Positions 2,211-48,386 of a stretch of DNA of 64,000 nucleotides are shown one piece after another (positions within the stretch are counted from its first letter, which is position 1; each line of letters opens with the position of its first letter). This stretch comes from Scilla litardierei (Eukaryota; Streptophyta; Magnoliopsida; Asparagales; Asparagaceae), in assembly GCA_030789695.1 (NCBI GenBank), contig CM061141.1, forward strand, positions 199,877,600 to 199,941,599, in the 5' to 3' direction. The notes below the pieces were generated by a model. That model was not told the origin of the DNA. It ran no database searches and was given only the letters and a program-made list of their open reading frames with translations. The position numbers were made by a program, and so were the translations under genes.

Positions 2211-2607
2211 ACCGACCGACTAGATGACGATCCAGTCGGTCGGCAAACCTTCTTGGACCGACTAGTGTGCTATCTAAATTTCTTAGAGGTTACTGTTTAT
2301 CGTTAGTCGGTCTAAGAACGTTGGTTGACCGACTAGGTTGCAAACTAGTCGGTCGGCAATGCTTCTTTAACCGACTAACTCTTTAAATTATTTTGACACT
2401 AGTTACTGTTTACTCTTAGTCGGTCTAAGAACGTTCATCGACCGACTAGATGATAAACTAGTCGGTCAGTATTTGTTCATGGACCGACTAACTCTAAATC
2501 CTATTTTCGTTCAGAAGTTACTGTTTACACTTAGTCGGTCTGCGCTGGTCGACCGACCGACTAGTTGCCAAACTAGTCGGTCAGTGGTTGTTCTTTGACC
2601 GACTAGT
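2211..2607 (+). promoter_or_regulatory. ACCGAC/GTCGGT palindrome array in TE-A LTR
   Basis: I count 15 GTCGGT or ACCGAC cores here. Each full unit is a nested palindrome: TTAGTCGGTC, ~17 nt, GACCGACTAG, ~8 nt, CTAGTCGGTC, ~17 nt, GACCGACTAA. Units recur at about 114 bp (starts near 2303, 2417 and 2531). The array ends ~40 bp before a TATA box, so it occupies the proximal promoter. ACCGAC is the core of the plant DRE/CRT element bound by DREB/CBF AP2/ERF factors; that function here is inference. Confidence 0.8.
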
Positions 2608-2648
2608 CTGTGTTAAAACCCTAATTTCTGGGCAGCTGCCAGCTCAAC

Positions 2649-2656
2649 CTATAAAG
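2649..2656 (+). promoter_or_regulatory. TATA box of TE-A LTR
   Basis: CTATAAAG lies ~40 bp after the ACCGAC array and just before a pyrimidine-rich, AAACCCTA-containing stretch that looks like a plant transcript leader. Position within the LTR fits the U3/R boundary. Confidence 0.65.
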
Positions 2657-4318
2657 ACCCAACCCAAACATTTTCATCTTCTCCAACACGACCCTAAACC
2701 CTAGTTTCTTCCCCTCTAAGCCCCCATCTCCCTCCAAGCTTCAATCCTTCATTCCAAGCCCTAAATCCATCATCCAATCCATCCATTCACTCATTCCACC
2801 ACTCATCTTCCCCAAATCTCCATCAAAACCCATCAAATCCCCAAAATCCCCCAAAACCCTAGTTTCCCCAAATTTCTCCAATCTTTTCCAGATCTGATCC
2901 TAGGGTTCCCCGGAGTGTTTCTTCCGCCTCCTCTCGGTAAGAAATCAATCTACCGTTGTTTTTATATCTTATTGTAATTTTTATGAAACCCTAATAAAAT
3001 ACTTGTGTTTTGTTGAATGTTCCCCATAATAGCGATTCCCCGTAGGCTAGCTTCCGCGGAACGAACTTTCGTAACCGTCATCCCCGGTGTTAGGCAAGTG
3101 AAACTTGCCACTTAGGGTTTAGGCCATGTTTTAGGCCATTTGCTTGTTGTAGGCGTAAAAGAGGCTAGGCGACGAAATGATACTCGCCTAGGCGCAAATT
3201 GGGGAACTAGTTTGACAACGAAGCTAGTACCGACCTTTAGCATGTTGCACAATTATCATGTCATGTTTACTTTCAATTAACGGTACGCGAATATGTTCAT
3301 GTCATTGCATTTCGCCTGTCACGTCTAATTCACTAAACGGTACGCAAATAAATTGTCATGACCTCGCATTCTTTAGGTGTTGCTGTGATTGCGTAGCTTT
3401 GCTACGATACTTGTGTTCCTGGCTCGTGATCAGAAGCGAGCATAATGAGTTGCTAACCCCAACGCTCGGAATGTATTGAATTGTGAACTAGGAATGCGAG
3501 CTCAATGTGCGGGGCAACCCTAGGCTCACTAGATGAGCTCAATGTGCAGGGACCCCAGGCTCCATATCGTGTGGGTATTGGGTAGTGTTTAGTGCCGATC
3601 GGTCTGAAATGCTATGCCATTCAGCGAAGGGCTTAAACACCTACAAAATGTGAATTGATTGAATTGATAGTAGCTTGGCTACTCTTGTCTTGTCCCGATA
3701 AATTGTTCACTTGAACAAATTGTCTTGGCATGTTTTAATTGTGCACTCATGTTATAACTGCCATGTCATGCATACTAAACTGCTAGGTTGCTAGTTGCCT
3801 TACCTTCAGTTTCCTTGCCCAAGTCTGTTTAGACTTGCTGACATGTGCCCCTTTACTCTTTTGGGTGACACATGTTAGATCCTGAGCCCGAGTACCTTGT
3901 TGAGGACGAGGTATTAGCTGACGCCGAGCCCGAGCCTGTGCTTGACGGGGTGTACGTGGACACTGGGGACCAGTCCTAGTGTTTTCATTGTGTTCCCCTT
4001 TTGTTAGACAGTTGTTTTGTTATCGGTGCGTAGCACCTATACTTTGTTATATTTGTCTTTTGTTTGGCCTTGTTCTGGACCTTAGACTCTTTTCTTTTAG
4101 CCTGGTGGCTTTTCTGTGATGTTGAATACTATCGTGGACAAACTTTGGGATTGGTATTTCTTATCCGTCTCTTATTATTATTATTGTTGTTGTTTCGTTT
4201 GCAATTACAGGGACCTGCTTTTACTAAATTGACGCTTATCGGGTTGGGGCTTCACCGCTCCACTCCCGTGCGGACCTTCCCACGTCTCGCCTCCATTTTA
4301 GGGAAGCGGGTCGTGACA

Positions 4319-5890: not shown

Positions 5891-6312
5891 TGTTGAATAT
5901 TGGACTCCCCGGATTTGGTTTTGATGATGAGCAAACATAAATAATCCATGAACTAACAATTTGTGATCGCAGTTTTGGAGATCGTCGCCAATTTCACGAG
6001 AACATTCAAAGCGACATCTCAACACTTCCCAAAGCTCGTATTCATGCCTAAAGCTTCGTTGAAGCTCTTGCGCCATTTTGGAAGTTATGAAGAATCAATC
6101 GAAGCTCTCGAAGACCGTTTATTAAGGTTTTATTTATAGTCTTTTAGCTTCGATATATAGAATGTTAAGCCTTGAGTATATCTTACGTTTCTATCTTCAT
6201 TACGCTCATTTCGTAGCTCTAGGATTCTTGCACAAGTTCATTCTAACTTCCTCGAAGCGTCGCGCTTCGATTCGGACTTGTTTGTGCATGTTAGTTGGTA
6301 CAAGAACAAGTA

Positions 6313-6829
6313 CTGACCGACTAGATAGTGATCTAGTCGGTCGGCAACTCTTCTTGGACCGACTAGTTTGATTCCTTAATTTCTTGGACTTTAATGTTTA
6401 CAGTTAGTCGGTCTACGTTGACTCACCGACCGACTAGTTTGTGAACTAGTCGGTCAGTGATGCTTCTTTGACCGACTAGTTGTGACTTACTGTTCATGCT
6501 AAATTTCTCCTAAGCTACTGTTTATCGTTAGTCGGTCTAAGAACGTTTGGTGACCGACTAGTTGACAATCTAGTCGGCCAACTTTTGTTCTTGGACCGAC
6601 TAAGTCAACTTGTGTTCAGACTATTTCATTTTGCCTCTTAGTCGGTCTACGTTCATTGACTGACCGACTAGTTGTGAAACTAGTCGGTCAGAAAGTCTTC
6701 TTGGACCGACTAGATTTCTAGGTCTGAAATTCTATCTCTTCTCAGATCTTCACTTAGTCGGTCCATGCTGTTTGACTGACCGACTAGTTGATGAACTAGT
6801 CGGTCAGTGATTGTTCTTTGACCGACTAA
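6313..6829 (+). promoter_or_regulatory. ACCGAC/GTCGGT palindrome array in TE-B 5' LTR
   Basis: Five units (the first partial) with 19 ACCGAC/GTCGGT-type cores; one has decayed to GTCGGC. Unit spacing is ~110-116 bp (starts near 6413, 6529, 6639 and 6754). Spacers as well as cores match the Gypsy LTR arrays: TACTGTTTATCGTTAGTCGG near 6512 also occurs in TE-A near 2291. The array ends ~55 bp before the TATA box. A matching array is at 17031-17548 in the 3' LTR. Confidence 0.85.
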
Positions 6830-6883
6830 TTCTCACAGATTTCTATCCGTTGGAGAATGACCTAACTTGTTTTTATGGGACCC

Positions 6884-6890
6884 TATAAAT
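6884..6890 (+). promoter_or_regulatory. TATA box of TE-B 5' LTR
   Basis: TATAAAT in the context CCCTATAAATACG, ~55 bp downstream of the ACCGAC array. The 3' LTR has TATAAAT at 17602-17608, with one upstream substitution (CCT to CTT). Confidence 0.7.
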
Positions 6891-7648
6891 ACGAACCTAG
6901 GTCATTTCTATCTAGGTTAGAGCTTCCATTCAGAGATTCATTGAGATCAAAAGAGATAGCCATTCTCACTCTAATCTAAAGCTCTCTTCCTCACAAGAAA
7001 CCCATTCTCTCTCATTTCTAGATCTAGAATCCATCTAGAGAGAAGGTTGTTCTTGGTGAGCTCTTCAAGCTATTGCTTGATCCAAGTCTCCAAATCATCC
7101 CTAGGCACCGATTGATGGTCATTTCCTTGGTGCTAGGTCTTGGTGACTTCATCTTCCTCAAATCCTTCATTTCACCATTTGGGTAAGAAAAACTCAAGGT
7201 ATAGGATTTTGTGGTAAGATTGTTTATTTCATATTAAACTCTTTAATATTGCTTTGTGATTCTCTAGGTTGTGAGAGAAGGTTGTGATCCCGGGTTGTGG
7301 GATTCACGTTTGCTATTGCATGTATGATTTGATCTTGTGAAGGTTTTTCACAAGATATTCATAGTGGAAATCTTGGGTTAGGGTTTCTAACCTAAGTATC
7401 CGGAGGGGATCCGGGTGGTTGGGACGTAGGATCACCGGGAACAAGTCGGGGAGACTTGGGTGGATCCGAACCCATTAACATCATTTGTTTGCATTGTTAA
7501 TTTTGTTGTTGTCATTCAATTTAAGCTTCTGCAAATTGATTTGGTAGTTGTTTGCAATTTAATTTGGAATTATACTCCTTATTATTTTAAAGTACTATTC
7601 ACCCCCCCCCCTCTAGTACTTGTGCAGTAGCTGGTAGGGCATTACATT

Positions 7649-7661
7649 TGGTATCAGAGCC
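7649..7661 (+). other. Primer binding site of TE-B (initiator-Met tRNA)
   Basis: TGGTATCAGAGCC, complementary to the 3' end of plant initiator methionine tRNA, starts two bases after the 5' LTR. This primes minus-strand DNA synthesis. It is a primer site, not a tRNA gene. Confidence 0.9.
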
Positions 7662-7673
7662 AGATACTCAGCT

Positions 7674-9914
7674 ATGTCTGCCAACGACAACAAGACCGTG
7701 CCTCCACCTTCCAACTATGACACCTTCAGGAACCGTGAAGGAGCATCTTCGGTGATGGAAGGACATTCCTCTACGAGGCCTCCATTCTTCAACGGTACCA
7801 ACTATGGGTATTGGAAATGCCGGATGGAAACCTTCCTCCAGAGTGCATCCTTATGGAGGACTACAATGAAGGAGTACATCGAACCCAAAGAAGAAGACTT
7901 TGAGAAATGGACTACCGCGGAGGTCGCCGCGGAGGTAAGCAATGCCAAGGCAATGAACGCCTTGCAATGCGCATTGGAGCCCGAGGATTTCAATAAGATA
8001 TGCCCATGTAAGAGTGCATATCAAATTTGGAACTCCCTCCTCATTCTTCATGAAGGGACGAGTAGGGTAAGAGACTCTAAACTCGTAGTCGTAAACAAAG
8101 ATTACGAAATGTTTCATATGCAACAGGGCGAGAAGATGAAAGAATATTACGCTCGCTTCGTTGACGTAATAAACGAGTTAGAGGCCCTCGGCAAGACCTA
8201 CACTCAAAAGGAGAAGTGCTTAAAGCTTATTGAAGGACTTCCCTCTTCTTGGGAAAAACGTACCTTCGCCATCGAGGAAGGTAATGACATGAACAAATAT
8301 ACCGTAGTTCAACTAATGGGTACTTTGATGTCATACGAGGTACGCAAAGATAGCAAGGTGAAGCTACAAGAAAAGATGAAGTCATATTTGAACCTAGATG
8401 CGCCTAAGAAAAAGGCGATTGCATTCAAGGCGGCTTCATCCACCTCTACCGATGATGAGGACTCGGAAGAAGAAATGGACATGGAATCCATTGCACTCAT
8501 GGCAAAGAAGTTCAATCGCTTCTTCCGAAAGGGTAACTTCAAACAAAAATCTAAGTTTACTTCTACTAACGCCTCTCCACCTTTGTGCTTTAAATGCAAT
8601 AAGCCAGGACACATCAAAGCGGATTGTCCTCAAAACAAGCAAAAGGAGAAGTGGAAGGCGCCGAAGTTCGACAAGTCAAAGAAGTACAAAAAGGGGTATA
8701 AAAAGGGACTTGTCGGAGCAACATTCACCGACTCCGAGGATTCCTCAAGCGGAGAGTCGGATGATGAGAAAGTGGAGCAAGCGCACATGTGCTTCATGGC
8801 AAGAGAGGAGCATGATCAAGGATCTTCCTCCTCCGATGATAGCGACGACGAAGGCGATGAGGTAACGATGGATGATCTTAGGGATGCTAACTCTCATTTA
8901 TGGTCTAAATACACAAAATTAGTATATCGATATACTAAAGTAAAAGATGACCTAGCTAGCATTCAAACCTCACCTAAGACTATCATCACCAACAACGACA
9001 CCGTTGTTGAAGAGTTAAGAAATGAGATTGTTAATCTCAAATCTAAACTTGAACATGTTAGCATTGATGATCCGGAAGAACATAGGATAGCGGATTTAAC
9101 TTCTCAAAACTCGACTTTGAGTATTGAGAACGAGAATCTTAAATCTCGTGTTTATGTGCTCACATCGCAAGTATCCACTTTAGATACTTCTATGAGTTCT
9201 CTCAAAGAGAAATATGAGAACACATTAGGCCGAATCAATAGATTCAATAAGGGTAAGGACCATTTGGATAAAATCCTAAGTGACTTACTTCCGGCCAATC
9301 ACCACATTGGTTTGGGGTATACGATGGGATGTCCATCCAAAGCGGCCACTACCTTTGTTAGGCCAACTTCCGGTGACTCAACGAGTGGTAGCAAACACTC
9401 TATTGGTAGTTCATCTACCAATGGTGCTTCCACCTCGTCCACACCCTCTTTTGGAAAGAAACCCACTTTGGGTGGACCTCCAAAGAAGGGGCATGCTTAT
9501 ATGTACACCAATAACATGCCACGTAGGAACACACGTCCTACTCCACCATCTCACACATATGATGATTTCTATGCTACACGTTCACGGGCACATGCACACC
9601 ATGTGAGACACCCTCACGCATGTGTTCCCACACATGCATATGTTCACCCACCTCATCGTATGAATAATTCTCGTCATGCACCATTCCATCATGTTCCGTA
9701 TGCCTATCCACGTCATGCATCACGTAGAAACCAACAACGCATGCATGCACCCAATAGGATTATGGCTCCCAAAATTTTTACTATTTGGAGCCCAAAGGAC
9801 ACAAGCATGGAAGAAAAACAAGTATATATGAATGCTTATTTTTCGGATGTTGTGCATAGTAGAGATTATGTGGGGAAGTCAAAGTCCAATTGGACTTGGC
9901 TTCCAAAGGTCTAA
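7674..9914 (+). CDS. TE-B gag (746 aa; capsid/nucleocapsid)
   Basis: The first ATG lies 12 bp after the primer binding site. Residues ~35-235 are a Copia gag domain of the UBN2/Retrotran_gag type (PFFNGTNYGYWKCRMETFLQ near the start). A CCHC zinc knuckle CFKCNKPGHIKADC spans residues 305-318 and would bind genomic RNA. Acidic and Ser-rich stretches follow, then a heptad-like coiled-coil segment (~430-530), a Ser/Thr/Gly-rich linker, and a His-rich segment (~625-695) of unknown role. Frame stops at TAA 9912-9914. Pol resumes in the same frame at 9969, and a 60-bp intron-like segment lies between, so Gag-Pol may need splicing or some recoding event. Length is typical for large SIRE/Maximus gags. 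Confidence 0.9.
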   Translation: MSANDNKTVPPPSNYDTFRNREGASSVMEGHSSTRPPFFNGTNYGYWKCRMETFLQSASLWRTTMKEYIEPKEEDFEKWTTAEVAAEVSNAKAMNALQCALEPEDFNKICPCKSAYQIWNSLLILHEGTSRVRDSKLVVVNKDYEMFHMQQGEKMKEYYARFVDVINELEALGKTYTQKEKCLKLIEGLPSSWEKRTFAIEEGNDMNKYTVVQLMGTLMSYEVRKDSKVKLQEKMKSYLNLDAPKKKAIAFKAASSTSTDDEDSEEEMDMESIALMAKKFNRFFRKGNFKQKSKFTSTNASPPLCFKCNKPGHIKADCPQNKQKEKWKAPKFDKSKKYKKGYKKGLVGATFTDSEDSSSGESDDEKVEQAHMCFMAREEHDQGSSSSDDSDDEGDEVTMDDLRDANSHLWSKYTKLVYRYTKVKDDLASIQTSPKTIITNNDTVVEELRNEIVNLKSKLEHVSIDDPEEHRIADLTSQNSTLSIENENLKSRVYVLTSQVSTLDTSMSSLKEKYENTLGRINRFNKGKDHLDKILSDLLPANHHIGLGYTMGCPSKAATTFVRPTSGDSTSGSKHSIGSSSTNGASTSSTPSFGKKPTLGGPPKKGHAYMYTNNMPRRNTRPTPPSHTYDDFYATRSRAHAHHVRHPHACVPTHAYVHPPHRMNNSRHAPFHHVPYAYPRHASRRNQQRMHAPNRIMAPKIFTIWSPKDTSMEEKQVYMNAYFSDVVHSRDYVGKSKSNWTWLPKV

Positions 9915-9968
9915 CTTTTGAGGACCCAATGACCCTGGGTACCATGATATGAAAGTTTCTATCTTTAG
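9909..9968 (+). other. Intron-like 60-bp segment between gag and pol of TE-B
   Basis: The segment starts GTCTAAC after AAG and ends CTATCTTTAG before GTAATC. It is exactly 60 nt, so its removal joins gag to pol in frame. It holds four in-frame stops in 20 codons (first at 9912), unlike the clean ORFs on each side. The acceptor is good; the donor (GTCTAA) is weak, and 60 nt is near the lower limit for plant introns. Alternatives are stop-codon recoding or a decayed coding segment. Confidence 0.4.
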
Positions 9969-12900
9969 GTAATCAAGGAAAAGAAAAAGAAAAGGAGCAA
10001 CAAATTTAAATTTAGCTCCAAAGGGAATTGGATACTCGATAGCGGGTGTTCAAAACACATGACGGGTGACGCTCGATTGCTCTCCGGAGTGGTTCCCATT
10101 GCGAATGGAAACCGCGTCGTATTTGGAGGCAACGAGAGCGGAACCATCGTCGGTGTTGGTAAAGTGGGTAACCCTTCTAAACCCTTAATTAGTGATGTCT
10201 ATCTTGTTAATGGTATAAATCATAATCTTATTTCAATAAGCCAACTTTGTGACAAAGGTTACAAAGTTAGCTTTGCGAAAGGATTATGTCATATTTCAAA
10301 TGATAATGATAAATTATTATTTTCCGGCACACGCCATAAAGATATTTATATTTTGGATCTTCCTAAGTCATATGAACAATGTCTCGTTGCCAACACAAGT
10401 GAACAACACTTATGGCATCGACGCTTTGGACATGTGAACTTTGGAACACTTTATAAACTTTCGAAATTAAATTCCATTAAAGGTTTTCCGAAGCTCGTTT
10501 TCGAAAAGAAAAGTTTTTGTGATTCTTGTCAACGTGGCAAGCTTCCTAAATCTTCATTTAAACCTAAGAAAAGCATTTCTACGAAACGGCCACTAGAGCT
10601 ATTACATCTAGATTTATTTGGGCCAACTAGAGTTGCTTCCTTAGGAAATGCAAGATATGGACTAGTCATCGTTGATGATTATTCAAGATTTACATGGGTA
10701 TTTTTCTTATGTAATAAAAATGAAGCTTTTGAAAACTTCACAATATTTGTGAAGAAAGTACAAAATCTCATCGGAACCACCATTGTCACTATTCGTAATG
10801 ATCATGGGGGTGAATTTGAGAATGAGTCTTTCTCAAATTTTTGTGATGATCTTGGAATTACTCACACGTTTTCTTTCCCTCGCGCACCTCCTCAAAATGG
10901 TGTTGTTGAGAGGAAGAATAGAACGCTTGTGGAGTGTGCTCGCACTATGCTCGAAGATAGTCAACTTGGTTATCAATTTTGGGCGGAAGCGGTACACACC
11001 GCTTGTTATGTGTTTAATAGAATACTTTTGAGGCCCGGCACCAAACAAACTTGCTATGAATTGTTGTTTGGTAGATTGCCTCAAGTTAAACATTTTCGTG
11101 TTTTCGGCGCAAAATGTTTTATTAAAAACACATATGATAATTTGGACAAGTTTGATCCGAGATCGGATGAGGGGATATTTGTTGGGTATTCCTCACGTAG
11201 CAAAGCCTACCGGATATACAACAAAAGATCCTCTACGATCGAGGAATCACTTCATGTCTCTTTTAATGAGAATTTTACTACTTCTAGAATTTCAAATGAT
11301 AATGATTCTATGGATGTTTTATGTGATTCATTTGAAAATTCTAAGTCTATTGATTCAATTGATTCTATTGAGACTAACCCGACTAATGAAGTTGGTGAGA
11401 ATGTGCCTAGTGATCAAGGTATTCCCAAGCGGCTTCATACCGTTCGCGACCATCCCCATGAGCAAGTTATTGGCAATATTAATGATAGTGTCAAGACGAG
11501 ATCTCAAGTCCACCACTTCGCCAATTGTGCCTTTGCCTCATCGATAGAGCCAAAGAATATCGTTGAAGCGTGCGAAGATAGTGCTTGGATCCTTGCCATG
11601 GAGGAGGAACTCATTCAATTCGAGAGGAATGAGGTATGGGAGCTTGTTCCTTTGCCATCGAAGAACCACACCGTCATAGGGACAAAGTGGATCTTCAAGA
11701 ACAAAACCGACGAAAATCAAGTCGTCGTCTGGAACAAAGCTCGGTTAGTAGCTCAAGGCTATCGCCAAGAGGAAGGTATCGATTTCGAAGAATCCTTCGC
11801 TCCGGTAGCTAGATTAGAATCAATTAGACTTTTATTGTCCTATGCATGCCATAAAAATTTTAAGTTATTTCAAATGGATGTTAAAAGTGCATTTTTAAAC
11901 GGAGATGTCGTTGAGGAAGTTTACGTTTCTCAACCTCCGGGCTTCATAAATGAAAAATTTCCAAATCATGTTTTTAAACTAAAGAAAGCTCTTTATGGTT
12001 TGAGACAAGCTCCTCGAGCTTGGTATGATGACCTAAAGAATTTTCTTTTGGATTTGAATTTTAAAATGGGCGAAGCCGATTCTACACTTTTTGTTAAGCA
12101 TGCGAATAATGATATTTTATTAGTTCAAATTTATGTTGATGATATCATTTTCGGTGCTACTAACTTCACTCTTTGCGAAGAGTTTTCTAATGTTATGAAG
12201 GAACAATTTGAGATGAGCCACATAGGCGAACTCAAATATTTCTTAGGTCTCCAAATTCGCCAATTGAACGATGCAATCTTCATCCACCAAACGAAGTATA
12301 CGGTGGAGTTGCTTAAGTGATTTGGAATGGAAAGTGCTTCCGGGAAAAAGACTCCAATGAGCACGACTACGCATCTTGACAAGGATACGGGCGGTAAGGA
12401 TGTAGACATTCGTCTATATCGAGGTATGATAGGTAGTTTACTTTATCTTACCGCAAGTAGGCCCGATATTATGTTTGCCGTATGCATATGTGCTCGTTAT
12501 CAGTCTCAACCTAAGGAGTCTCACTTAGTAGCGGTTAAGCGTATTTTCCGTTATCTAAGTTACACTTTAGATTTTGGATTACTTTATCCGAAATCTAGCA
12601 CGTATGAGTTAGTCTCATACAGTGATGCCGATTATGCGGGATGCAAATCCGACAGGAAAAGTGCTAGTGGCACTTGCCATTTTCTAGGAAATTCTCTTGT
12701 CTCTTGGTTTTCCAAGAAGCAAAATTCCGTATCACTTTCAACCACCGAGGCGGAATATATTGCCGCTGGTGCCGCTTGTGCCCAGGTTCTTTGGATGAGA
12801 CACACTTTGAAGGATTTTGGTATTCACTGTGATACTAGCCCTATCATGGTGGATAACCAAAGTGCTATCTGTCTTTCAAAGAATCCGGTGCACCATTCCC

Positions 12901-13082
12901 GATCAAAACACATAGATGTCCGACACCATTTCTTAGATGATCATGTTGCTAAAAAGGACATCATTTTAGTGTACGTTGAAACCCAAAAGCAAATCGCCGA
13001 TATTTTCACGAAACCCCTAAAGGAGGACTCCTTTGTGCGGTTGCGTCGAGAATTGGGGATTATGGGTGAATCCGAGATATAG
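9969..13082 (+). pseudogene. TE-B pol: protease, integrase, RT, RNase H, with one internal stop
   Basis: Copia order is clear. The protease has [12 protein letters not shown] at ~10035. The GAG-pre-integrase zinc region (LWHRRFGH ... [10 protein letters not shown]) is near 10411-10545. The integrase core has Asp in LHLDLFGP, Asp in RNDHGGEFE and Glu in [16 protein letters not shown] has [11 protein letters not shown] and the catalytic YVDD at 12132-12143. RNase H contains YSDADYAG, STTEAEYIA and DIFTKPL. A single TGA at 12318-12320 interrupts the frame after VELLK; the frame continues unchanged to TAG at 13080-13082. CGA to TGA by C-to-T change is the simplest origin. Apart from that stop, reading is intact, consistent with youth. 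The reading frame upstream is open from 9969, after the intron-like segment. Confidence 0.92.
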
Positions 13083-13326: not shown

Positions 13327-13711
13327 CTAGTCGGTTTCAGTTCATTTGTCAACCGACTAGATGCTCATCTAGTCGGTCAGCAAGTGAACTCAGACCGACT
13401 AGATCAAGCTTCTATCTCACTCTTATCTTTCTCTTTCTTTAGTCGGTCACAGTACACATACCGACCGACTAGATTGAAAACTAGTCGGTCAGTGAATATA
13501 CTGCGACCGACTAAATCTAGCACTAAAAATTCCTGTTTGCCCCTGTTTCGACTTAGTCGGTTCAAGCTCATTGACCGACCGACTAGATCGTAATCTAGTC
13601 GGTCAGTGCTTGAACTGTGACCGACTAAGTGGGTTAGGGCAAATGCGTCTTTTCCAGATCTCGACCGACTTAAACTCATTTCAGTCGACTAAAACTCCTT
13701 TTAGTCGGTCT
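13327..13711 (+). promoter_or_regulatory. Internal ACCGAC/GTCGGT array of TE-B, upstream of ORF3
   Basis: Three full nested-palindrome units plus a degenerate fourth (14 cores) lie between pol and ORF3, ~300 bp ahead of the ORF3 ATG. The architecture equals that of the LTR arrays but spacers are not identical to them, so this is not a simple recent LTR copy. 13712-14016 is a pyrimidine-rich leader with several CTAGGGTTT (telo-box-like) motifs, typical of plant 5' UTRs. I see no clear TATA box. A promoter for a subgenomic ORF3 transcript is inferred. Confidence 0.6.
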
Positions 13712-14016
13712 CTTTCTAAGCTCAAGCCCGAAAACCCCAAACCCCCTCCGAGCCTCTTCAACTTCCCGTCGACTCCGGCCATTACTCCGGCCATCCCCGC
13801 CGTCCGCCGTCGTCGCCTCCTCCTCCTAGGTATCTCCCTCCTCATCCTAGGTCGATTCCTACTCTAGGGTTTGTTTTACATCTCTTCTAGGGTTCTAGAT
13901 CCTAGGGTTTCTAGTTTTAACCTAGGGCTTGTGTTTCGGATTCTCTCTTCTAGGGTTTGTGCCAGGTTGTTTTTGATCCTCCGTGATCGTTTGGTTGTAC
14001 TCGTCGTGCCTCGACC

Positions 14017-15657
14017 ATGGCAAAGACGAGGATTCCTATCACCTCTTCTGGGGCTTCTCCCATGACTGTAGGACCTTCCGACCCTAGGAATCCCTCTAAG
14101 CCTAAACGTCGTGCCAAATCAACCCAAGCTTCTCCGTCTTCGCCTCCTCTGAAGAAGCAGAGGACGTCGACAGTCAAACCCCGCAAATCTAAGACCAAAA
14201 AGCCCATACTCCACACTCCCTCTACTCCTCCCGATTACGATTCTGAGTTTGTGCCTGAGGATGAGCCAGGCCATAGGGAACCCACTCCTCCACTTCGTCC
14301 TAGGACTCGCCAGCCAAAGGGAAAGGGCCCAATGCCAGCGGGGGGTGTTGACATATCGTTGTGTCGCGATGACCCTATGTGTCTCGCGGCCTACAACCGT
14401 ATTGAACACTGCCTGATGTTATTGGAGCACTACGTCCAGTTTTCTGATTTCCTTGGCTTAGCTGACCTACTCTCCTATAGTGGTCTCCTTGATTATCTCC
14501 GATTCGACCCCAAGGCCAATCCCAAACCATATCCTCGCCTTGTGAAATTGTTCTACGCCAATCGCGTTCGAGGCCAGTACGATGTCAGTCACTCCATTGA
14601 GACTACTGTCTTGGGAACTCCTATAGTTCTCACGGCAGAAATCTTGGGGGAGATTCTTGGCTGTTCGTCGTGTGGTCTCCTTCCTTCGGACATTTCCGTC
14701 GATGACATTTCTTCCTTGGATCAGTCAGTTCTTTCAGATATCTTCCAGGTTATCCCCTCCGCATTCATTGGTGTTCCATCGAAATATTTCAAGCCGAATG
14801 CGTGGGTCCTTAACCTGATCTTGAAGTCTTGCCTACTCCCTAAGTATGGATCATCTTCACTTCCATCCCAGCCGTTCTTGAAATTGATCTATGCTCTTTT
14901 CTTGGGATGCGAGATTAATTGGGCTCGCGTGATACTCGATAAGATGGACTCTTTCGAGTGTATACACAAGACCAATAAATCTGCGCATATTCCATACCCT
15001 TGTCTGTTGACCCTCGTGTTTCGTCATTTCCGAGTCACTCTCCCTCCTGACGATGAGCGTCCCTTGGGTACTCCTCTAAACGCGACGGTCGTGAAGAAAT
15101 CTTTAGCGGCGCTTCGTCACGTGCAGAGGTCTACAGCATCTGCTTCCCAGTCCATTCCGTCAGCTGCTGCAGCCTCCACTCCTCCTGCTACTTTAGACGA
15201 TGTCGTACGCCTACTTCGTCAGCACGACTCACGTTTGGCTCGTACTGAGGAGGTAGTCTGCCGTATGGCTCGTATGATGGGGATTGATCTTCCTCCTTCA
15301 GTTTCTGAGGCCGAGGAGATGGACGATGAGGAACTTGACGAGCTTGTCACTTCCTTAGCCCGTGGCGATGAGGCCACTGCTGCTGCTGCTGCTACCACTT
15401 CAGCTCCTGGAGATGGCACCACTTCCGGTGCTCCAGAGACGTCTGCTTCAGCACTTCAGACTTCTGAGTCTGCTGCTGACCCTGTTACCGAGCCTGCTGA
15501 TATTCCTGTTGACACATTTGCCGTCGAGCCCGTCGTTGACGTCTCGACTCCTGCCCCGACGATTCCATCTGTTGAGACACCTCTACTCCCTGCAGAGCCT
15601 GAGTCCACTCCGTCGACTGGACCCACGGACACTGCAGATCCAGCCACTTCCTCGTGA
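14017..15657 (+). CDS. TE-B ORF3 (546 aa), putative plant transposon protein domain / env-position ORF
   Basis: An uninterrupted ORF after pol and before the 3' LTR, the place of the so-called envelope-like ORF in SIRE/Maximus elements. Residues 1-105 are basic and Ser/Pro-rich (PKRRAKSTQ, KSKTKK), resembling a nuclear localisation region. Residues ~120-330 resemble the 'putative plant transposon protein' domain (YVQFSDFLGL, RLVKLFYANRVRG, AEILGEILGC), recognised from memory. A Ser/Thr/Ala/Glu-rich low-complexity tail follows. I see no signal peptide or convincing transmembrane segment, which argues against a membrane envelope. The function is not known. Start: ATG in ACCATGGC, a good plant context. 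The ACCGAC array upstream may drive it. Confidence 0.75.
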   Translation: MAKTRIPITSSGASPMTVGPSDPRNPSKPKRRAKSTQASPSSPPLKKQRTSTVKPRKSKTKKPILHTPSTPPDYDSEFVPEDEPGHREPTPPLRPRTRQPKGKGPMPAGGVDISLCRDDPMCLAAYNRIEHCLMLLEHYVQFSDFLGLADLLSYSGLLDYLRFDPKANPKPYPRLVKLFYANRVRGQYDVSHSIETTVLGTPIVLTAEILGEILGCSSCGLLPSDISVDDISSLDQSVLSDIFQVIPSAFIGVPSKYFKPNAWVLNLILKSCLLPKYGSSSLPSQPFLKLIYALFLGCEINWARVILDKMDSFECIHKTNKSAHIPYPCLLTLVFRHFRVTLPPDDERPLGTPLNATVVKKSLAALRHVQRSTASASQSIPSAAAASTPPATLDDVVRLLRQHDSRLARTEEVVCRMARMMGIDLPPSVSEAEEMDDEELDELVTSLARGDEATAAAAATTSAPGDGTTSGAPETSASALQTSESAADPVTEPADIPVDTFAVEPVVDVSTPAPTIPSVETPLLPAEPESTPSTGPTDTADPATSS

Positions 15658-16608: not shown

Positions 16609-18361
16609 TGTTGAATATTGGACTCCCCGGATTTGGTTTTGATGATGAGCAAACATAAATAATCCATGAACTAACAATTTGTGAGCGCAGTTTTGAAGAT
16701 CGTCGCCAATTTCACGAGAACATTCAAAGCGACATCTCAACACTTCCCAAAGCTCGTATTCATGCCTAAAGCTTCGTTGAAGCTCTTGCGCCATTTTGGA
16801 AGTTATGAAGAATCAATCGAAGCTCTCGAAGACCGTTTATTAAGGTTTTATTTATAGTCTTTTAGCTTCGATATATAGAATGTTAAGCCTTGAGTATATC
16901 TTACGTTTCTATCTTCATTACGCTCATTTCGTAGCTCTAGGATTCTTGCACAAGTTCATTCTAACTTCCTCGAAGCGTCGCGCTTCGATTCGGACTTGTT
17001 TGTGCATGTTAGTTGGTACAAGAACAAGTACTGACCGACTAGATAGTGATCTAGTCGGTCGGTAACTCTTCTTGGACCGACTAGTTTGATTCCTTAATTT
17101 CTTGGACTTTAATGTTTACAGTTAGTCGGTCTACGTTGACTCACCGACCGACTAGTTTGTGAACTAGTCGGTCAGTGATGCTTCTTTGACCGACTAGTTG
17201 TGACTTACTGTTCATGCTAAATTTCTCTTAAGCTACTGTTTATCGTTAGTCGGTCTAAGAACGTTTGGTGACCGACTAGTTGACAATCTAGTCGGTCAAC
17301 TTTTGTTCTTGGACCGACTAAGTCAACTTGTGTTCAGACTATTTCATTTTGCCTCTTAGTCGGTCTACGTTCATTGACTGACCGACTAGTTGTGAAACTA
17401 GTCGGTCAGAAAGTCTTCTTGGACCGACTAGATTTCTAGGTTTGAAATTCTATCTCTTCTCAGATCTTCACTTAGTCGGTCCATGCTGTTTGACTGACCG
17501 ACTAGTTGATGAACTAGTCGGTCAGTGATTGTTCTTTGACCGACTAATTCTCACAGATTTCTATCCGTTGGAGAATGACCTAACTTGTTTTTATGGGACC
17601 TTATAAATACGAACCTAGGTCATTTCTATCTAGGTTAGAGCTTCCATTCAGAGATTCATTGAGATCAAAAGAGATAGCCATTCTCACTCTAATCTAAAGC
17701 TCTCTTCCTCACAAGAAACCCATTCTCTTTCATTTCTAGATCTAGAATCCATCTAGAGAGAAGGTTGTTCTTGGTGAGCTCTTCAAGCTATTGCTTGATC
17801 CAAGTCTCCAAATCATCCCTAGGCACCGATTGCTGGTCATTTCCTTGGTGCTAGGTCTTGGTGACTTCATCTTCCTCAAATCCTTCATTTCACCATTTGG
17901 GTAAGAAAAACTCAAGGTATAGGATTTTGTGGTAAGATTGTTTATTTCATATTAAACTCTTTAATATTGCTTTGTGATTCTCTAGGTTGTGAGAGAAGGT
18001 TGTGATCCCGGGTTGTGGGATTCACGTTTGCTATTGCATGTATGATTTGATCTTGTGAAGGTTTTTCACAAGATATTCATAGTGGAAATCTTGGGTTAGG
18101 GTTTCTAACCTAAGTATCCGGAGGGGATCCGGGTGGTTGGGACGTAGGATCACCGGGAACAAGTCGGGGAGACTTGGGTGGATCCGAACCCATTAACATC
18201 ATTTGTTTGCATTGTTAATTTTGTTGTTGTCATTCAATTTAAGCTTCTGCAAATTGATTTGGTAGTTGTTTGCAATTTAATTTGGAATTATACTCCTTAT
18301 TATTTTAAAGTACTATTCACCCCCCCTCTAGTACTTGTGCAGTAGCTGGTAGGGCATTACA
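16609..18361 (+). repeat. 3' LTR of TE-B (1753 bp)
   Basis: Matches the 5' LTR (5891-7646) with about nine substitutions I can see and a shorter poly-C run. Includes its own ACCGAC array (17031-17548) and TATA box (17602-17608). It ends ATTACA at 18361, followed by the TGAAG target duplication. Confidence 0.96.
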
Positions 18362-29949: not shown

Positions 29950-30440
29950 CTCCCGGCCAGGGCATCTGCCCTGGCCGGGGCTTGGCCAAGGGCCGGCCAG
30001 GGCCTCTGCCCTGGCCGGCCAGGGGCCCTGGCCCCCTCGGCCAGGGCCGGCCAGGCCCTGGCCTCTGCCAGGGCCGGCCGGCCAGGCCACTGGCCGGGGC
30101 CAGGGCTCCTGCCCTGGCCTCAGCCAGGCCCTGGCCTGAGGCCAGGGTGCCGGCCCTGGCCTCTGCCAGGGCCGACAGGCCGGCCCTGGCCTCTGCCAGG
30201 GCCGGCCTGGCCCTGGCAGTGGCCAGGGCGCCGGCCCTGGCCTCTGCCAGGGCCGGCAGGCCGGCCAGGGCCGGCCTGGCCGGCAGGCCTTGGCCAAGGC
30301 CGGCCACTGCCGGCCTGGCCTTGGCCGGCCACTGCCGACCTGGCCTTGGCCGGTCATGGCTTGGCCATGGCCGGCCATGGCCAAGGCCATTCGGCGTTGG
30401 CCGGCCATGGCCCCTTTGGCCATGGCCGGCCACCCCCTTT
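29950..30440 (-). repeat. TE-C leader: CTGGCC/GGCCAG low-complexity array (~490 bp)
   Basis: Almost purely G+C, built from GGCCAGGGC, CTGGCCGGCC and GCCGGCC words, many self-complementary. It sits in an otherwise AT-rich element, between primer site and gag, so it is part of the genomic RNA leader. Long Gly/Pro/Ala/Arg ORFs on both strands are compositional artefacts. Confidence 0.85.
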
Positions 30441-30880: not shown

Positions 30881-30921
30881 AGTTTCGACGGGGCGGTGGT
30901 TTGACCGGGGCGAACCCATAT

Positions 30922-30934: not shown

Positions 30935-30935
30935 A

Positions 30936-31538: not shown

Positions 31539-31543
31539 TTTTG

Positions 31544-42470: not shown

Positions 42471-42499
42471 TTCACCTTTTTTCGTATTCCGACGAGATT

Positions 42500-42790
42500 C
42501 TTCTTCATTTTATTCTTCAATTTGGATGCGAGATAAGCGATCGAAAACAACAGGAAGGAGTTCTTGTGCCTCAGAGGGACAGTAGCCATCCACCGCCAAC
42601 CTATGTGACCAAGGGCCGCCATCCAGGCTTAATCATATGTATTAGTTTGTAAGAGCATAGGCTAATGAATCAGTTTGGGTCTGTATCAGTATGTACATGA
42701 ATATAGTTGAATTCGATTGAATATGTCTTCAGATTGGTTGTGCGCGTTAAACCATTGTCTATAAAATACCTTAGATGCTCAAAGCGAACA
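42500..42790. repeat. Segment family R, copy 6 (cut by TE-E)
   Basis: Carries the CCGCCAACCTATGTGACC block, then TTTGTAAGAGCATAGGC (42648) and TACCTTAGATGCTCAAAGCGAAC (as at 23467), and stops at the TE-E boundary. Confidence 0.7.
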
Positions 42791-42832
42791 TGTCACGCCC
42801 CGCTTCCCAAAAATATGGAGGCGAAGCGTGAA
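42791..42832 (-). repeat. Inverted copy of the TE-E LTR terminus
   Basis: TGTCACGCCCCGCTTCCC... is the perfect reverse complement of 48345-48386. It abuts pol directly. It gives the truncated element terminal inverted repeats beginning TGTCACG. Confidence 0.95.
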
Positions 42833-45800
42833 GAAGGTGGTGTTCGAGATTCCCGGACATCCAGTGTTTGAGTTCAGCCGTGGTAGCAGTTCGATTGGTC
42901 CGGTCAGGTTTCGGGCCAAGCCGGTGGAGGCTGTGGCTATGCTGATGGAGCAGGGTAGGCCTGCTGTGGTGCGTGAATTTGATGACGTCTTCCCCGAGGA
43001 GATGTCTGGTCTGCCGCCCGATCGAGCTCTAGAGTTTTCTATCGATCTGATTCCGGGGGCGCAGCCCATTTCAAAGGCACCTTATCGGATGGCTCCAGCG
43101 GAATTGGAGGAGTTGCGGAAGCAGCTGGATGAGCTCTTGCAGAAGGGTTACATAAATCCCAGTGTGTCTCCGTGGGGAGCACAGGTCTTGCTGGTGAAGA
43201 AGAAGGACGGTTCGCGTCGTATGTGCATGGATTATCGAGGGCTGAATGCGGTGACTGTAAAGAATAAGTACCCATTGCCGCGGATTGATGATATTTTTGA
43301 TCAGCTGGGAGGATCGAGAGTATTTTCCAAATTGGACCTGAGGAGTGGATATCACCAGCTGAAGGTGAGGAAAGAGGACATTTCGAAGACGGCGTTCAGG
43401 ACGAAGTATGGTCACTACGAGTTCGTGGTTATGCCTTTTGGTGTGACCAACGCGCCCGCAGTATTTATGAACCTGATGAATTTGATCTTCTATGACTACC
43501 TAGATAAGTTTGTCGTTATCTTCATTGACCACATTCTGATCTATTCTAAGTCAGAGGAGGAGCATGCGTCACACTTGAGGACAGTATTGGAAATTCTGAG
43601 GAGGCATCGGTTGTATGCCAAGTATTCGAAGTGCGAGTTCTGGCTGGATAGAGTGGCTTTTCTGGGGCATGTGGTGACTGGTGATGGGATTTCGGTGGAT
43701 CCCGAGAAGATCAAGGCCATCAGAGAATGGCCGGTTCCACAGTCAGCGACTGAGATCAGGAGTTTTCTTGGGCTTGCAGGTTATTATCGGCGTTTCATTA
43801 AGGATTTCTCCCGGATTGCCGAACCGATGACTAAACTGACGAGGAAGGATATACCGTATGTTTGGTCCGATGCTTGTATGGAGGCCTTCTCTGTTCTGAA
43901 GGAGAGATTGACGACTGCACCGGTTCTAGCAGTGCCTGATCGTAGTGGAGGATTCGAGATCTTTTGTGATGCTTCTGGCAAGGGTCTCGGTTGTGTGTTG
44001 CACCAGCATGGGCATGTGGTTGCGTATGCTTCTCGTCAGCTCAAGACTCATGAGAAGAATTACCCGACGCACGACCTGGAGTTAGCAGCAGTCGTGTTTG
44101 CACTCAAGATTTGGAGGCACTTCCTGCTGAGTGAGAAGGTGAAGATCTTCACCGATCACAAAAGCTTGAAGTACATTTTTACACAGAAGGAGCTCAACAT
44201 GCGACAGCGTCGATGGTTAGAGCTCATGGCAGATTATGAGATCGAGTTGCAGTATCACCCGGGAAAAGTGAATGTGGTTCCGGATGCGCTGAGCAGACTA
44301 CCAGCGGTGATGATGTTGACTGCACAGTGGAGGTTGCAGCAGGATTTCTGTGAGTCTGGTATTGAGATTGTACTTCCTGGAGAGGCTTCGTCGTTGATGT
44401 GTATACAGATACAGTCGACGATCGTGGATCGGATCAAGGCAGGACAGGTTGGAGATTTGAAGCTGAAGAGGATCCGTGAGCAGGTAGAAGCCGGTCTGCG
44501 GACTGACTTTCGGATTCATGAGGATGGCTCGCTGAGGTATGGAGCCAGAGTTTGTGTGCCAGCTGGAGACATCAGAGAGGAGTTATTAGCTGAGGCACAT
44601 AGCTCGCCGTATTCTGTGCATCCTTGTGGCACCAAGATGTATCAGGATCTTCGTCTGAACTATTGGTGGCATGGCATGAAGCGGAGCGTGGCTCGGAGCG
44701 TAGCCAAGTGTTTGGTCTGTCAGCAGGTTAAGGCGGAGCATCAGCGTACGGCAGGGTTGCTACAACCGCTTCCGATTCCGGAGTGGAAGTGGCAACACAT
44801 CACTATGGACTTCGTGACTGGACTACCTCAGAGTCTGAAGCAGAATGACGCGATTTGGGTGATCGTAGACCGATTGACCAAATCCGCGCACTTTATTCCG
44901 TTCCGAGTAGGACAGTCCACTGAGGTACTAGCAAGGAGATATATGGAGGTAAATCCTTTTACTTTCCATTTCTATTTCCTTTTCCTAGAATAGTTAGTGA
45001 TTTAACGTGTCCGTGCAGGAGATCGTTCGATTGCATGGAGTCCCTGTGAGTATCGTGTCGGACAGAGACACGAGATTCACATCTCAGTTTTGGCAGAGTC
45101 TGTAGAAGAGCTTGGGTACGAGTCTGAGTTTCAGTACGGCGTACCATCCGCAGACAGATGGCCAGTCCGAGAGGACGATTCAGATCTTGGAGGACATGCT
45201 GAGGGCGTGCATGTTGGACTTCAAGGGTTCTTGGGAGGATCATCTCCACCTTGTTGAGTTTGCCTACAATAACAGCTACCAGGCGAGTATTGGCATGGCG
45301 CCATTCGCCGTGCTATACGGGAAGAAATGTCGATCGCCACTGAGCTGGGATGACATTGGAGACAGGGAGCTGTTAGGGCCAGAGATGATTGTGGAGGCAG
45401 TGGATGTTGTGAGGAACATCCGGGAGAAGCTGAGAATTGCCCAGGACCGTTTCAAGCATTGGGCTGATGCTAAACGGCGACCTTTGGAGTTTCAGCCTGG
45501 GGATCACGTTTTCCTGAAGATCTCTCCGAATCGGGGAGTTATCCGATTTGGAAAGAGAGGCAAGCTGAGTCCGAGGTACATTGGGCCGTTTGACATCCTG
45601 GAGAGAGTTGGAGAGGTGGCTTATCGCTTGGCGTTGCCACCGTCACTGGAGGGAGTTCACGACGTATTTCACATATCTCAGCTACGTCGATACGTCAGTG
45701 ATCCGTCCCATGCTGTGGATTTCTCGGAGATCACGTTTCGTCCGGATCTTACCTATGACCAGCAGCCAGTTGAGATTTTGGATCGACGACAGAAGCAACT

Positions 45801-45924
45801 GAGGAATAAGACCGTCGACTTGGTTCGAGTGCAGTGGCGGCATGGTTCACCTGGTGAGTCCACCTAGGAGCGTGAGGATGATATGAGAGAGTGCTTCCCG
45901 CACTTGTTTTCGAGTAGTGGTTGA
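42828..45924 (+). pseudogene. TE-E pol (RT, RNase H, integrase), inactivated
   Basis: The frame starts within the protease-RT linker. RT has [37 protein letters not shown] and [11 protein letters not shown]; the catalytic box reads FIDH (His codon 43530-43532) where FIDD is expected. RNase H has [14 protein letters not shown]. The integrase zinc and core motifs match TE-A. A 70-bp intron-like insert splits the core at 44951-45020. CAG has become TAG at 45103-45105, and TGG has become TAG at 45865-45867; both fit deamination of methylated C. The reading would end at TGA 45922-45924. Not functional. Confidence 0.9.
44951..45020 (+). other. Intron-like 70-bp insertion in TE-E integrase
   Basis: Compared with TE-A (ATATATGGAG|GAAATCGTG at ~960), TE-E has ATATATGGAG|GTAAATCC...TGTCCGTGCAG|GAGATCGTT. 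The insert begins GTAAAT, has a pyrimidine-rich middle, contains a TTAGTGATTTAAC stretch suitable as branch region, and ends GCAG. Removal restores the exact TE-A junction. It shows no terminal duplication typical of a transposon. Confidence 0.75.
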
Positions 45925-45965
45925 TGTTGATTCCGAGGACAGAATCATTCATAAGGTGGGGAGGA

Positions 45966-48386
45966 TGTAACGACCGGTGTTTGTAATATATATATTTTAA
46001 CTGATTAATATTGAATTTCTCCTCCTTGTATGTTTCCTCGATTAAATCCTCACATTTTAGCTTAATAACGCCGTAATTCTAGAGTTAGGATGATCCTAGA
46101 AGCCATGGAAACTTTCCCGAAGCTTCGCGCTTCGTTTCGGCACTTCTGGTGCATCTTAGTGGTTCACGAAGGGGAACCAACCGACTAGAATGAGATCTAG
46201 TCGGTCGGCAATCCTTCATGGACTGACTAGTTCAACGTATTAAAAATAGCTGAGTTACTGTTTGTCGTTAGTCGGTCTAAGTTCAACCTTCGACCGACTA
46301 GTTCTCAAACTAGTCGGTCAAGCATTGTACTCAGACCGACTAATTCTGAGTTTCACTGAACAGTAGAGTTACTGTTTGTCGTTAGTCGGTCTAAGAACGA
46401 TTTCCGACCGACTAGGTTGCAAACTAGTCGGTCAGCTGTTGTTCTTCAACCGACTAATCCTTGTACAGTCTTTTCTACAGTAGCTACTGTATATTTTTAG
46501 TCGGTTAAGAGTTGCTCTTCAACCGACTAGTTCTAATTCTTATCATTTAGCTTTTGGTTGCCTTTTAGTCGGTCAACGTTGGTCGACCGACCGACTAGTT
46601 CTTAAACTAGTCGGTCACCAGTTGCGCTCTGACCGACTAAAGTAGTCGACCTGTACCAAACCCTATTCTCGGTTTGTCATTTAGTCGGTCTACGTTAGGT
46701 GACTGACCGACTAGTTCTTAAACTAGTCGGTCAACCACTCTTCTTTGACCGACTAGTTGACCTCGAAACCCTAGATCTATTTTTAGCCGCCGTTCTTATT
46801 TCTTTTTAATCCGTCGTTTCCTTCATTCATCATTCATTTCTTTCTGAGCTAAGATCATTCACAAATCATCCCTAATCTTCCCCAAAACATTTCTTTCATC
46901 CTCGGAGGTTATTTCTCACCGTATCTTGCGCCGGATACCGATCTAGGTCACCGAGATCCCGTTTCCGGCCATAGTTTCCCGGGATCGTTCTTCGTCACCA
47001 AATCAAGATCCGTTTTTGGTGTCTTCCATCTGCTACACTACGGTTAGTAATCCTAATCTTGTAACCTCTAATAACCCACACTGTAAACTAGAAACCCTAA
47101 TTGAAAATGGATTATTAGACATAAGATTTCAATGCAAAATGATTTAGAATTTCCGTCTAATCTTTATTTTTACCATAAACAGCGAATTCATCTACCGTAG
47201 GACATCGTTCTCGTTACTCACGTCGATCAACAATTCGGTACCAGGCAAGTGAAACTTGCCAACACTTCTTAGGGCCATGTTTTAGGCCAATTCTTTGTAC
47301 TAGCGTGAAAGAGACTAGATCGTGAAATGATAGCGATCTAGGCGCAACTTTGAGATCTAGCTTGACAACGAAGCTAGATCCGACACCTTGATATATCATT
47401 CATGCATTGATAATTGCCATGTTTAAATTCCTTTAACTGTACGCACTTGAATTGTTAACTGCCATGCATTGCATCTTACATGTCATCCTAGTTAAACTTG
47501 CATCGTAGCACACGCTACACTACATGTACAAAATCCATGTTTCCGTGTTACCGGCTAGGCACCCGTTATGCGGGCATAACCCTACGCCATCCGTGGTAAA
47601 AACACTTCCTGGCTCGTGATCCAGAAGCGAGCATTTCGTGTTCGGGGGTAATGCCCTGGCTCGACACACGTGGAGGGGTAGGGATAAACGATCACTTGAG
47701 CGTAAGAGTTGGCCCGTACAGCCACTCTAGCCAAAGGGCGGAATCTCTGTGCACGACGTGATTACAATTCCAGTACTTGTCTTTTACTTGTTTACTTGCC
47801 ATGCCATGTTACTTGCCATGCCATGCTATTTGCCATGCTATACCATGTCATACTTTACTTTAGAACTGTTAGGTTGCTTCCTTTTTATAGTTTCCTTGCA
47901 CAAGTCTTTTTAGACTTGCTGACATGTGCCCCTTCTCTTTGGGTGACGCATGTTAGTTGCTGAGCCAGAGACAGTTGCGGAGGGTGACGAGTTCGTGGAG
48001 TTCGTGCCCGAACCTGTTGGTGACGTGGAGTACGAAGATACCGGTGATCAATCTTAGAGATCTTCCGTACTTTTCTTTGTTAGCTGTGGTTGTCGGTGAG
48101 TAGCACCGTTTTGTTAGTTTCTTTTGGCCGTGCTGGGCCTTGTACTTTTGACTCTTTTGTTGCCTGGTGGCATTTCTGGTTGCGGACTTTTGTTGGACTA
48201 TGAGTTGGATGAATGCTATATTATTCGCCTCTTTTGCTATTATTATTATTGTTGTTCTGAGTCACATTACAGGGACCTGCTACTTCATTTTGTTTGACGC
48301 TTATCGGACTTGCGGCTTTGCAGCTTCAAGTCCGTGCGGACCTTTTCACGCTTCGCCTCCATATTTTTGGGAAGCGGGGCGTGACA
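45966..48386 (+). repeat. 3' LTR of TE-E (2421 bp)
   Basis: Starts TGTAACGACC after GGGGAGGA and ends GGGGCGTGACA. Layout parallels TE-A: ACCGAC array (46176-46758), GGCAAGTGAAACTTGCC (~47244), CTGGCTCGTGATCCAGAAGCGAGCA region (~47609), ACTTGCTGACATGTGCCCC (~47915), and the GGGACCTGCTACTTC block (~48270). Confidence 0.92.
46176..46758 (+). promoter_or_regulatory. ACCGAC/GTCGGT palindrome array in TE-E LTR
   Basis: I count 20 cores in about five and a half units; one unit is reduced to its outer pair (46499-46530). Spacers again include GTTACTGTTTGTCGTTAGTC as in TE-A and TE-B. It is longer than the TE-A array, so copy number varies within the family. No strong TATA box follows; 'CTATTTTTAG' near 46776 is the nearest candidate. 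Confidence 0.8.

Follow-up and report, generated by a model that had tools for sequence, protein, structure and literature searches.

Each superfamily of long terminal repeat (LTR) retrotransposons is viewed as a lineage of its own, with control regions that evolve independently and fast. The locus described here, a window of 64,000 nucleotides from Scilla litardierei (GenBank assembly GCA_030789695.1, contig CM061141.1, positions 199,877,600 to 199,941,599 of the forward strand), raises the question of how two Gypsy elements (termed TE-A and TE-E) and one Copia element of the Sirevirus type (TE-B) came to carry the same array of palindromic units in their LTRs. An earlier interpretation made from the letters of this window (termed here the sequence-only reading) proposed that a cassette of the U3 (unique 3') region had passed between the superfamilies. 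Our analysis supports this proposal with some homologous linkers, a homologous 5' flank, background similarity outside the cassette, and recurrence of the same pattern in other insertions. The cassettes of Sirevirus and Gypsy LTRs are very probably homologous by descent; the simplest account is that a block of several units passed from one superfamily to the other a single time. The cassette spans ~440-800 bp, comprising 120-140 bp of 5' flank and 3-6 units, and in 23 of 24 arrays it stands 44-75 bp before a TATA-like box.

Each unit has the layout TAGTCGGTC-14-GACCGACTA-10-TAGTCGGTC-14-GACCGACTA, i.e. four 9-bp arms forming a 74-bp inverted repeat. The window holds 37 copies of TAGTCGGTC and 39 of GACCGACTA, compared with 0.13 and 0.10 expected under a dinucleotide model. 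These arms build five arrays: TE-A and TE-E each have one in their LTR, and TE-B has one in each of its two LTRs and one in its interior. The 17 units read here fit the 74-bp layout except for a decayed first arm in unit 1 of TE-A, TE-B, and TE-E.

The arrays and the features around them are on the plus strand. The 3' LTR of TE-A (1920..4318) runs from TGTAACGAC to GTGACA and is preceded by the polypurine tract (PPT) GGGGAGGA; it contains a 5' flank homologous to the Copia flank (2070..2190, boundary approximate), an array of 4 units (2191..2605), and a TATAAA 44 bp past the array (2650..2655). The 5' LTR of TE-B (5891..7646) contains the flank (6152..6291, boundary approximate), 5 units (6292..6828), and a TATAAA 55 bp past the array (6884..6889), and its 3' LTR (16609..18361), 99.3% identical to the 5' LTR, again has 5 units (17010..17546). 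The 3' LTR of TE-E (45966..48386) starts with TGTAACGAC after GGGGAGGA, as in TE-A, and carries the flank (46036..46155; the match to TE-B covers 46036-46170 and 6170-6306, respectively) followed by an array (46156..46755) of 5 units, with half a unit more at 46498-46529. The four LTR arrays had been named before, and their existence is confirmed with the corrected coordinates given here; the fifth array (13328..13627), with 3 units, lies outside the LTRs, in the interval between pol and the env-like open reading frame (ORF) of TE-B and upstream of the latter. Its spacing is that of the LTR arrays; its spacers and linkers differ.

In a wider set of 24 LTRs with one array each (16 Gypsy and 8 Copia; L045, L048b, L050, and L053 left out), the outer arms were found at the exact offset in 199 of 200 cases, with one shifted (up to 2 mismatches allowed, first arms of unit 1 excluded). 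The linkers between units vary from 34 to 51 bp, apart from two longer gaps due to a missed unit. Arm conservation was counted in 16 cassettes (L045 and L048b left out) for outer arms, which had played no part in unit detection: RCCGAC is retained in 133 of 138 (65/69 in Gypsy and 68/69 in Copia), and all nine arm positions are at least 91% conserved, the loosest being position 1 (G to A). Within 110 bp past the array, 23 of the 24 LTRs have a TATA-like box, identified by a loose pattern with no control for chance. Its distance from the array is 44-48 bp in 15 of the 16 Gypsy LTRs and 55-75 bp in all 8 Copia LTRs. The exception is TE-E, and the placement of the arrays before a TATA region, proposed for the whole set, is therefore correct for TE-A and TE-B only.

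The likeness between superfamilies extends beyond the arms. The sequences upstream of the TE-B and TE-E arrays align over 135 bp, of which ~120 bp are flank and the remainder is the decayed beginning of unit 1; the score is 62, and 2000 dinucleotide shuffles reach no more than 33. This lengthens the ~50 bp of homology reported by the sequence-only reading. The TE-A and TE-E upstream sequences align with a score of 46, matched by none of 2000 shuffles. Linker 1 measures 39 bp in TE-A, TE-B, and TE-E, with 28 of 39 positions identical between TE-A and TE-B (reached by 0 of 5000 letter shuffles), and TACTGTTTATCGTTAGTCGGTCTAAGAACGTT, the spacer string singled out earlier, is present exactly in both TE-A (from 2291) and TE-B (from 6516). 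Downstream of the arrays in the window we found no convincing Gypsy-Copia match: the scores were reached by 35/1000 and 83/1000 shuffles, and the top-scoring stretches, all short, do not adjoin the arrays.

We then compared ten representative LTRs segment by segment (eight of the eighteen cassettes were left out, and one letter shuffle was made per pair). Between the superfamilies, the 5' U3 is 19% identical (20 pairs; 24% after shuffling). The 140-bp flank averages 55% over 25 pairs and never falls below 47%, compared with a mean of 28% and a maximum of 40% for shuffled flanks. Unit 1 is 79% identical, and the next 300 bp past the array are at 23% (22% after shuffling). The two outer values, both at the shuffled level, agree with the earlier statement that Gypsy and Copia LTRs are otherwise unrelated. 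In the flank alignment (without L045, L048b, L050, L041, and L053), Gypsy-Copia homology fades 120-160 bp upstream of unit 1, with a boundary near -120 to -140, and Copia-Copia identity is 60-95% even beyond this point (13 rows). A BLASTN comparison of 5 Gypsy with 5 Copia LTR sequences, some of them partial, placed the best match inside the cassette in 25/25 pairs (top match 637 bp, 76%, E=1.9e-114). With the units masked, the flank still matched in 13/25 pairs (top match 101 bp, 77%, 4.6e-16), and the reversed control for this masked search gave no match. Because the flank and some linkers align, with background similarity on either side, we attribute the likeness to descent and not to the arms alone.

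A search of the whole genome, which the sequence-only reading had suggested, revealed carriers of both kinds. The 3.68-Gb genome contains 238,470 exact copies of the inner palindrome (reversed control, 0), and the 35-bp unit 1 block has 48,535 occurrences with up to 3 mismatches (control, 0); among twelve loci read with this block, the LTR start was of Gypsy type at two and of Sirevirus type at ten. At exact Gypsy PPT-LTR junctions the arm core was found 270-300 bp downstream in 10,116 of 11,317 cases, and two apparent exceptions (L074 and L075) both carried arrays on reading. At exact Sirevirus 3'-LTR junctions of one type it lies 385-415 bp downstream in 2,730 of 3,074. Over the initial 0.8 Mb of contig C1, 16 of 17 array clusters (grouped by eye) were assigned, to 9 Gypsy and 7 Sirevirus LTRs; the 17th, at 562.5 kb, is outside the assigned set. 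Five lone palindromes inside Sirevirus-like pairs were excluded from the clusters, and one of these (C1:259460, L040) is located between pol and env. One Gypsy element (L041) has gag, pol, and an array in both LTRs (1,462 aligned LTR bases, 99.0% identical; one LTR is cut by the end of the stretch). A palindrome scan of viral contigs returned two contigs with one palindrome each and no arrays.

Other carriers are differently built. L048 (C1:719200-726200) is of Sirevirus type, with a 787-aa gag-like ORF and LTRs ~5.4 kb apart, between which we detected no match to the pol or env of TE-B; it is perhaps a gag-only family with the same cassette. Between the array-bearing Gypsy-type LTRs of L042 (C1:55000-61000) there was no match to the Gypsy or Copia proteins of the window, making this locus a candidate non-autonomous element. 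In L064 (~1680-2605) a Sirevirus is rearranged: the array stops in unit 2 and is followed by an inverted LTR stretch and then by forward pol.

The order of the units bears on how the cassette moved. The spacers of the first units (A1, B1, and E1) group together, with 68-74% identity over 38 positions, and share the decay of the first arm. Among later units, B3 is 71% identical to A3 and E3, B4 74% to E6, and A4 74% to B5 and 68% to E5. A unit tree forcing the Gypsy units together is rejected (34 log units worse, approximately unbiased test p-AU 0.005), so a strict clustering of units by superfamily, devoid of spacer similarity, is not what these arrays display. The units group partly by position, clearly so for unit 1, rather than by superfamily. 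Because first units resemble first units, and some later ones resemble their counterparts at the same place in the array, the array probably had several units before it moved.

Whole cassettes behave differently from single units, which do interleave. A Gypsy|Copia split has support values of 99/99 in a tree of 18 rows (full arrays) and 95/91 in one of 23 rows (flank and two units). The latter excludes second LTRs of the same element and near copies (L045, L048b, L050, and L053), as well as L069, whose unit 1 is out of register; L074 and L075 are absent from the trees, and the midpoint root serves for drawing only. Because whole cassettes split by superfamily, one old exchange suffices. The crossing would have occurred by recombination or by template switching of reverse transcriptase (RT) between elements, after which the cassette would have been inherited and amplified separately within each superfamily. 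Over the flank and two units, the closest Gypsy-Copia pair (75% identical) is more alike than the Gypsy-Gypsy pair that is furthest apart (59%). These identities and the synonymous divergence (dS) of pol would make the exchange about as old as the split among the sampled Gypsy families if the block evolves alike in both superfamilies, a date that constraint makes rough.

Several observations weigh against a single old exchange of a homologous block, or limit what can be drawn from it. The upstream flanks of TE-A and TE-B, taken alone, give a weak score (25, reached by 93/2000 shuffles), several other linkers show no match above shuffles, and 12 of the 25 masked pairs, including all those with TE-A and L025, have no match. 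Some units are closest to partners out of order: A2 to E3 (71%), A4 to B5, and B2 to B5 of its own array (71%). Permutations of unit order reached the observed value in 2/24, 3/24, and 5/120 cases, a modest support for a strict order, and the unit tree, built from short rows and with two long branches, has no strongly supported branch. On the flank, unit 1, and linker 1 the superfamily split falls to 90/88; the Copia, E, L025, and A groups join in a near-polytomy, and rooting gave no direction. In pol, the Gypsy families differ from each other at a saturated dS of 1.2-2.6 (222-240 codons); at such a divergence the cassette must be under constraint or homogenisation, and its identity cannot serve as a clock. 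Finally, the sampling consists of the first 0.8 Mb of one contig and of chosen places.

What the cassette does can be approached from its geometry. Its position, its spacing, and the conservation of the arms indicate that the array is likely a putative promoter or enhancer acting at the DNA level. Each arm, (G/A)ACCGACTA, would be a half-site for a host DNA-binding protein. Like arms lie 42 bp apart within a unit, about four helical turns, and would thus share one face of the DNA. Because the arm contains ACCGAC, the core of the dehydration-responsive element/C-repeat (DRE/CRT), our first candidate activator is a DREB/CBF-type AP2/ERF factor, albeit a tentative and rather doubtful one. The DRE/CRT motif is given as G/ACCGAC in the accessible part of one source (PMC9171204); the core is common to both, whereas here nine bases are conserved in a fixed inverted array and the site is a predicted one. 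Conservation of all nine arm bases, including the final TA, goes beyond the DRE core, and the factor may thus be another one, perhaps element-encoded.

The same palindromes could instead work mainly as RNA or DNA hairpins, serving as a small-RNA source, in packaging, or as structure, with no transcription factor involved, which we consider unlikely without dismissing it. Folding of four units as RNA gave energies between -39.9 and -46.5 kcal/mol and z values between -7.7 and -11.5, and within a unit the two 14-bp spacers pair at 6.86 of 14 positions versus 6.30 across units of the same array (0/2000 permutations), a count drawn from 112 units of which many are near copies, so that rows are not independent. 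Maize Sirevirus palindromes are moreover described as small-RNA hotspots in the accessible part of PMC5311732. However, the extra pairing is small; for the 17 window units alone, the within-array excess was reached by 875/20,000 permutations, with none in TE-A or TE-B. Conservation resides mostly in the arms and their spacing, and the narrow distance to the TATA-like box fits a promoter role at the DNA level better. Units transcribed as RNA hairpins may be a small-RNA source alongside that role.

As to the origin of the cassette, a host promoter or a third repeat containing the flank and array could have been taken up separately by the Gypsy and Sirevirus lineages. This independent capture predicts the same pattern of homology as an exchange and accords with the clean Gypsy|Copia split of the cassettes. 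On the other side, the assigned clusters of the 0.8-Mb sample all belong to Gypsy or Sirevirus LTRs (16 of 17 clusters), and no separate source copy was seen in a search that was not exhaustive. We regard separate captures as quite unlikely.

Repeated, continuing exchange, i.e. shuffling of U3 by RT template switching or gene conversion, would account for the interleaving of unit trees and for a best Gypsy-Copia pair (75%) above the most distant Gypsy-Gypsy pair (59%). The sampled Gypsy cassettes nevertheless fall on one side of the cassette trees, with the lowest support on the shortest stretch. Ongoing swapping is unsupported by this split and seems to us distinctly improbable.

Convergence, in which both LTRs independently gained sites for the same factor and only the arms are alike, draws on arms that are much more conserved than the spacers, on the rigid spacing, and on the several linkers without a match above shuffles. 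It does not predict the 120-140 bp of flank and the linkers that align across superfamilies, also with the units masked, nor a 39-bp linker 1 and a decayed unit 1 first arm common to all three elements. We reject it on these flank, linker, and masked comparisons, though 12/25 masked pairs and several linkers are silent, and see hardly any chance for it; the sequence-only reading was right that convergence of binding sites is insufficient. An assembly or nesting artefact, by which a Sirevirus fragment with its array was inserted into a Gypsy LTR, has some basis in the rearranged and nested copies that do occur in the genome (e.g. L064), and is refuted, with practically no probability left, by the same-offset arm core at 10,116 Gypsy junctions and by the arrays in both LTRs of L041. 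Nor are the arrays a stray satellite inserted separately into each LTR, since they sit in an LTR context at fixed offsets in both superfamilies.

The coding regions of the window support the assignment of the three carriers. The pol of TE-A occupies 1-1900, the rest of the element lying beyond the left edge of the window, and its RNase H-integrase ORF is colinear with the Gypsy order as read from the ORF (the Pfam scan covered TE-B and TE-E). The pol remnant of TE-E (42765..45867, plus strand) consists of two ORFs in the Gypsy order RT-RNase H-integrase, with Pfam matches to RVT_1 (144-303), RNase H (367-491), and Integrase_H2C2 (603-657). A chromodomain at the integrase end is a chromovirus feature; the Pfam scan gave a match to SH3_Tf2-1 and none to a Chromo model. 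We assume that the Gypsy carriers are chromovirus-like (Tekay/Del-like). Besides the cassette, the LTRs of TE-A and TE-E share islands at 2979-3284 and 3761-4318 with 62-80% identity, the intervening stretches being 40-48% identical.

TE-B is flanked by the target-site duplication TGAAG at both LTR ends, and its 5' LTR is directly followed by TTTGGTATCAGAGC, which we take to be the primer-binding site. On the plus strand it encodes a gag (stop-to-stop ORF, 7638..9914; Pfam Retrotran_gag_2 and zf-CCHC), a pol (9969..13082) in two adjoining ORFs of the same frame, interrupted by a stop, and an env-like ORF (13987..15657) matching Pfam Transposase_32 (putative plant transposon protein), for which no relative was found at E 0.001 among 8000 candidates scored. 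In pol, rve (207-307) precedes RVT_2 (554-782), the Copia gene order, and the relatives of pol reach at most 62% identity among the 120 matches listed, those with an organism name being from plants. Four AGGGGGAG PPTs are found near the 3' LTR, the last ending 2 bp short of 16609, in keeping with the clustered PPTs of Sireviruses, whose terminal copy begins 10 bp before the LTR; the LTR end is C-rich. TE-B is a Sirevirus: every tested feature was found except one base of the attachment site, which reads AA/TG and not the Sirevirus 5'-AT/TG-3' (one base at one junction); AT is given for 20 elements in the accessible part of PMC2829016.

The surroundings of these elements are themselves repetitive. 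TE-B is embedded in a minisatellite (4317-5887 and 18399-20665) with periods of 73 and 382, the unit of which contains the palindromic CACGACGGGCAAAATTACCCCCGTCGTG. A very GC-rich GGCC tandem array lies within an open frame at 29994-30432, and the ORFs at 49580-52937 are presumably Helitron-like.

The broader reading, in which a complete multi-unit enhancer cassette crossed between Copia and Gypsy and then helped both to spread, so that two abundant LTR families share one host activator, is plausible to us at somewhat less than even chance. If true, one trans factor would switch on both superfamilies at once, and one small-RNA population could silence them at once. The U3 examined here is a mosaic, in which a block conserved across superfamilies stands between stretches at background level despite a Gypsy pol dS above 1. 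Regulatory modules, and not entire elements, would then become a unit of inheritance, and these families offer a natural test of whether promoter capture explains bursts of amplification. With the half-site and the spacing almost invariant, and the TATA-like box at an almost constant distance, a direct search for the binding protein is possible.

The class of motif is known. In the accessible part of Bousios et al. 2010 (PMC2829016), palindromic CGG-CCG repeated motifs (RMs) are described in the upstream half of Sirevirus LTRs, where they cluster shortly before the TATA box; another cluster precedes env. TE-B resembles these elements, with palindromic CGG-CCG clusters before its TATA box and before its env-like ORF, and the half-site core CGGTC/GACCG is common to the window arms and to the RMs of Osr10, Osr8, and Vitis. 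In contrast, the half-sites here are separated by 10 or 14 bp in a four-arm unit of 74 bp, compared with 0-4 bp in the published RMs as read from the table, and the window units depart from the strict compact-palindrome form. The RM is termed Sirevirus-specific and absent from classic Ty1/copia, and the three mentions of gypsy in the accessible text of that paper concern other matters; here, arrays were read in 16 Gypsy LTRs, together with flanking homology.

Maize Sirevirus LTRs likewise have a palindrome-rich cis-region with strong secondary structure (PMC5311732 and PMC10760457, citing Bousios 2016, as far as their accessible text goes). The maize Copia palindrome is also the top motif of structured regions in Helitrons (PMC10760457), a case in which the motif is common to both, with neither flanking homology nor Gypsy carriers described in the accessible part. 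A literature search, in which subscription papers were mostly not covered and sources were seen in part, returned no report of such palindromes or of such a cassette in Gypsy elements. The Gypsy carrier and the evidence for transfer are what is new here. The nearest parallel for the process is that of the complex elements of Triticeae (Sabot and Schulman 2007, PMC1950507, accessible part), which involve recombination of LTR retrotransposons during reverse transcription, as proposed here; there, two parents were fused into a large daughter element, whereas in the Scilla genome an internal U3 cassette would have crossed between superfamilies and is found at many loci.

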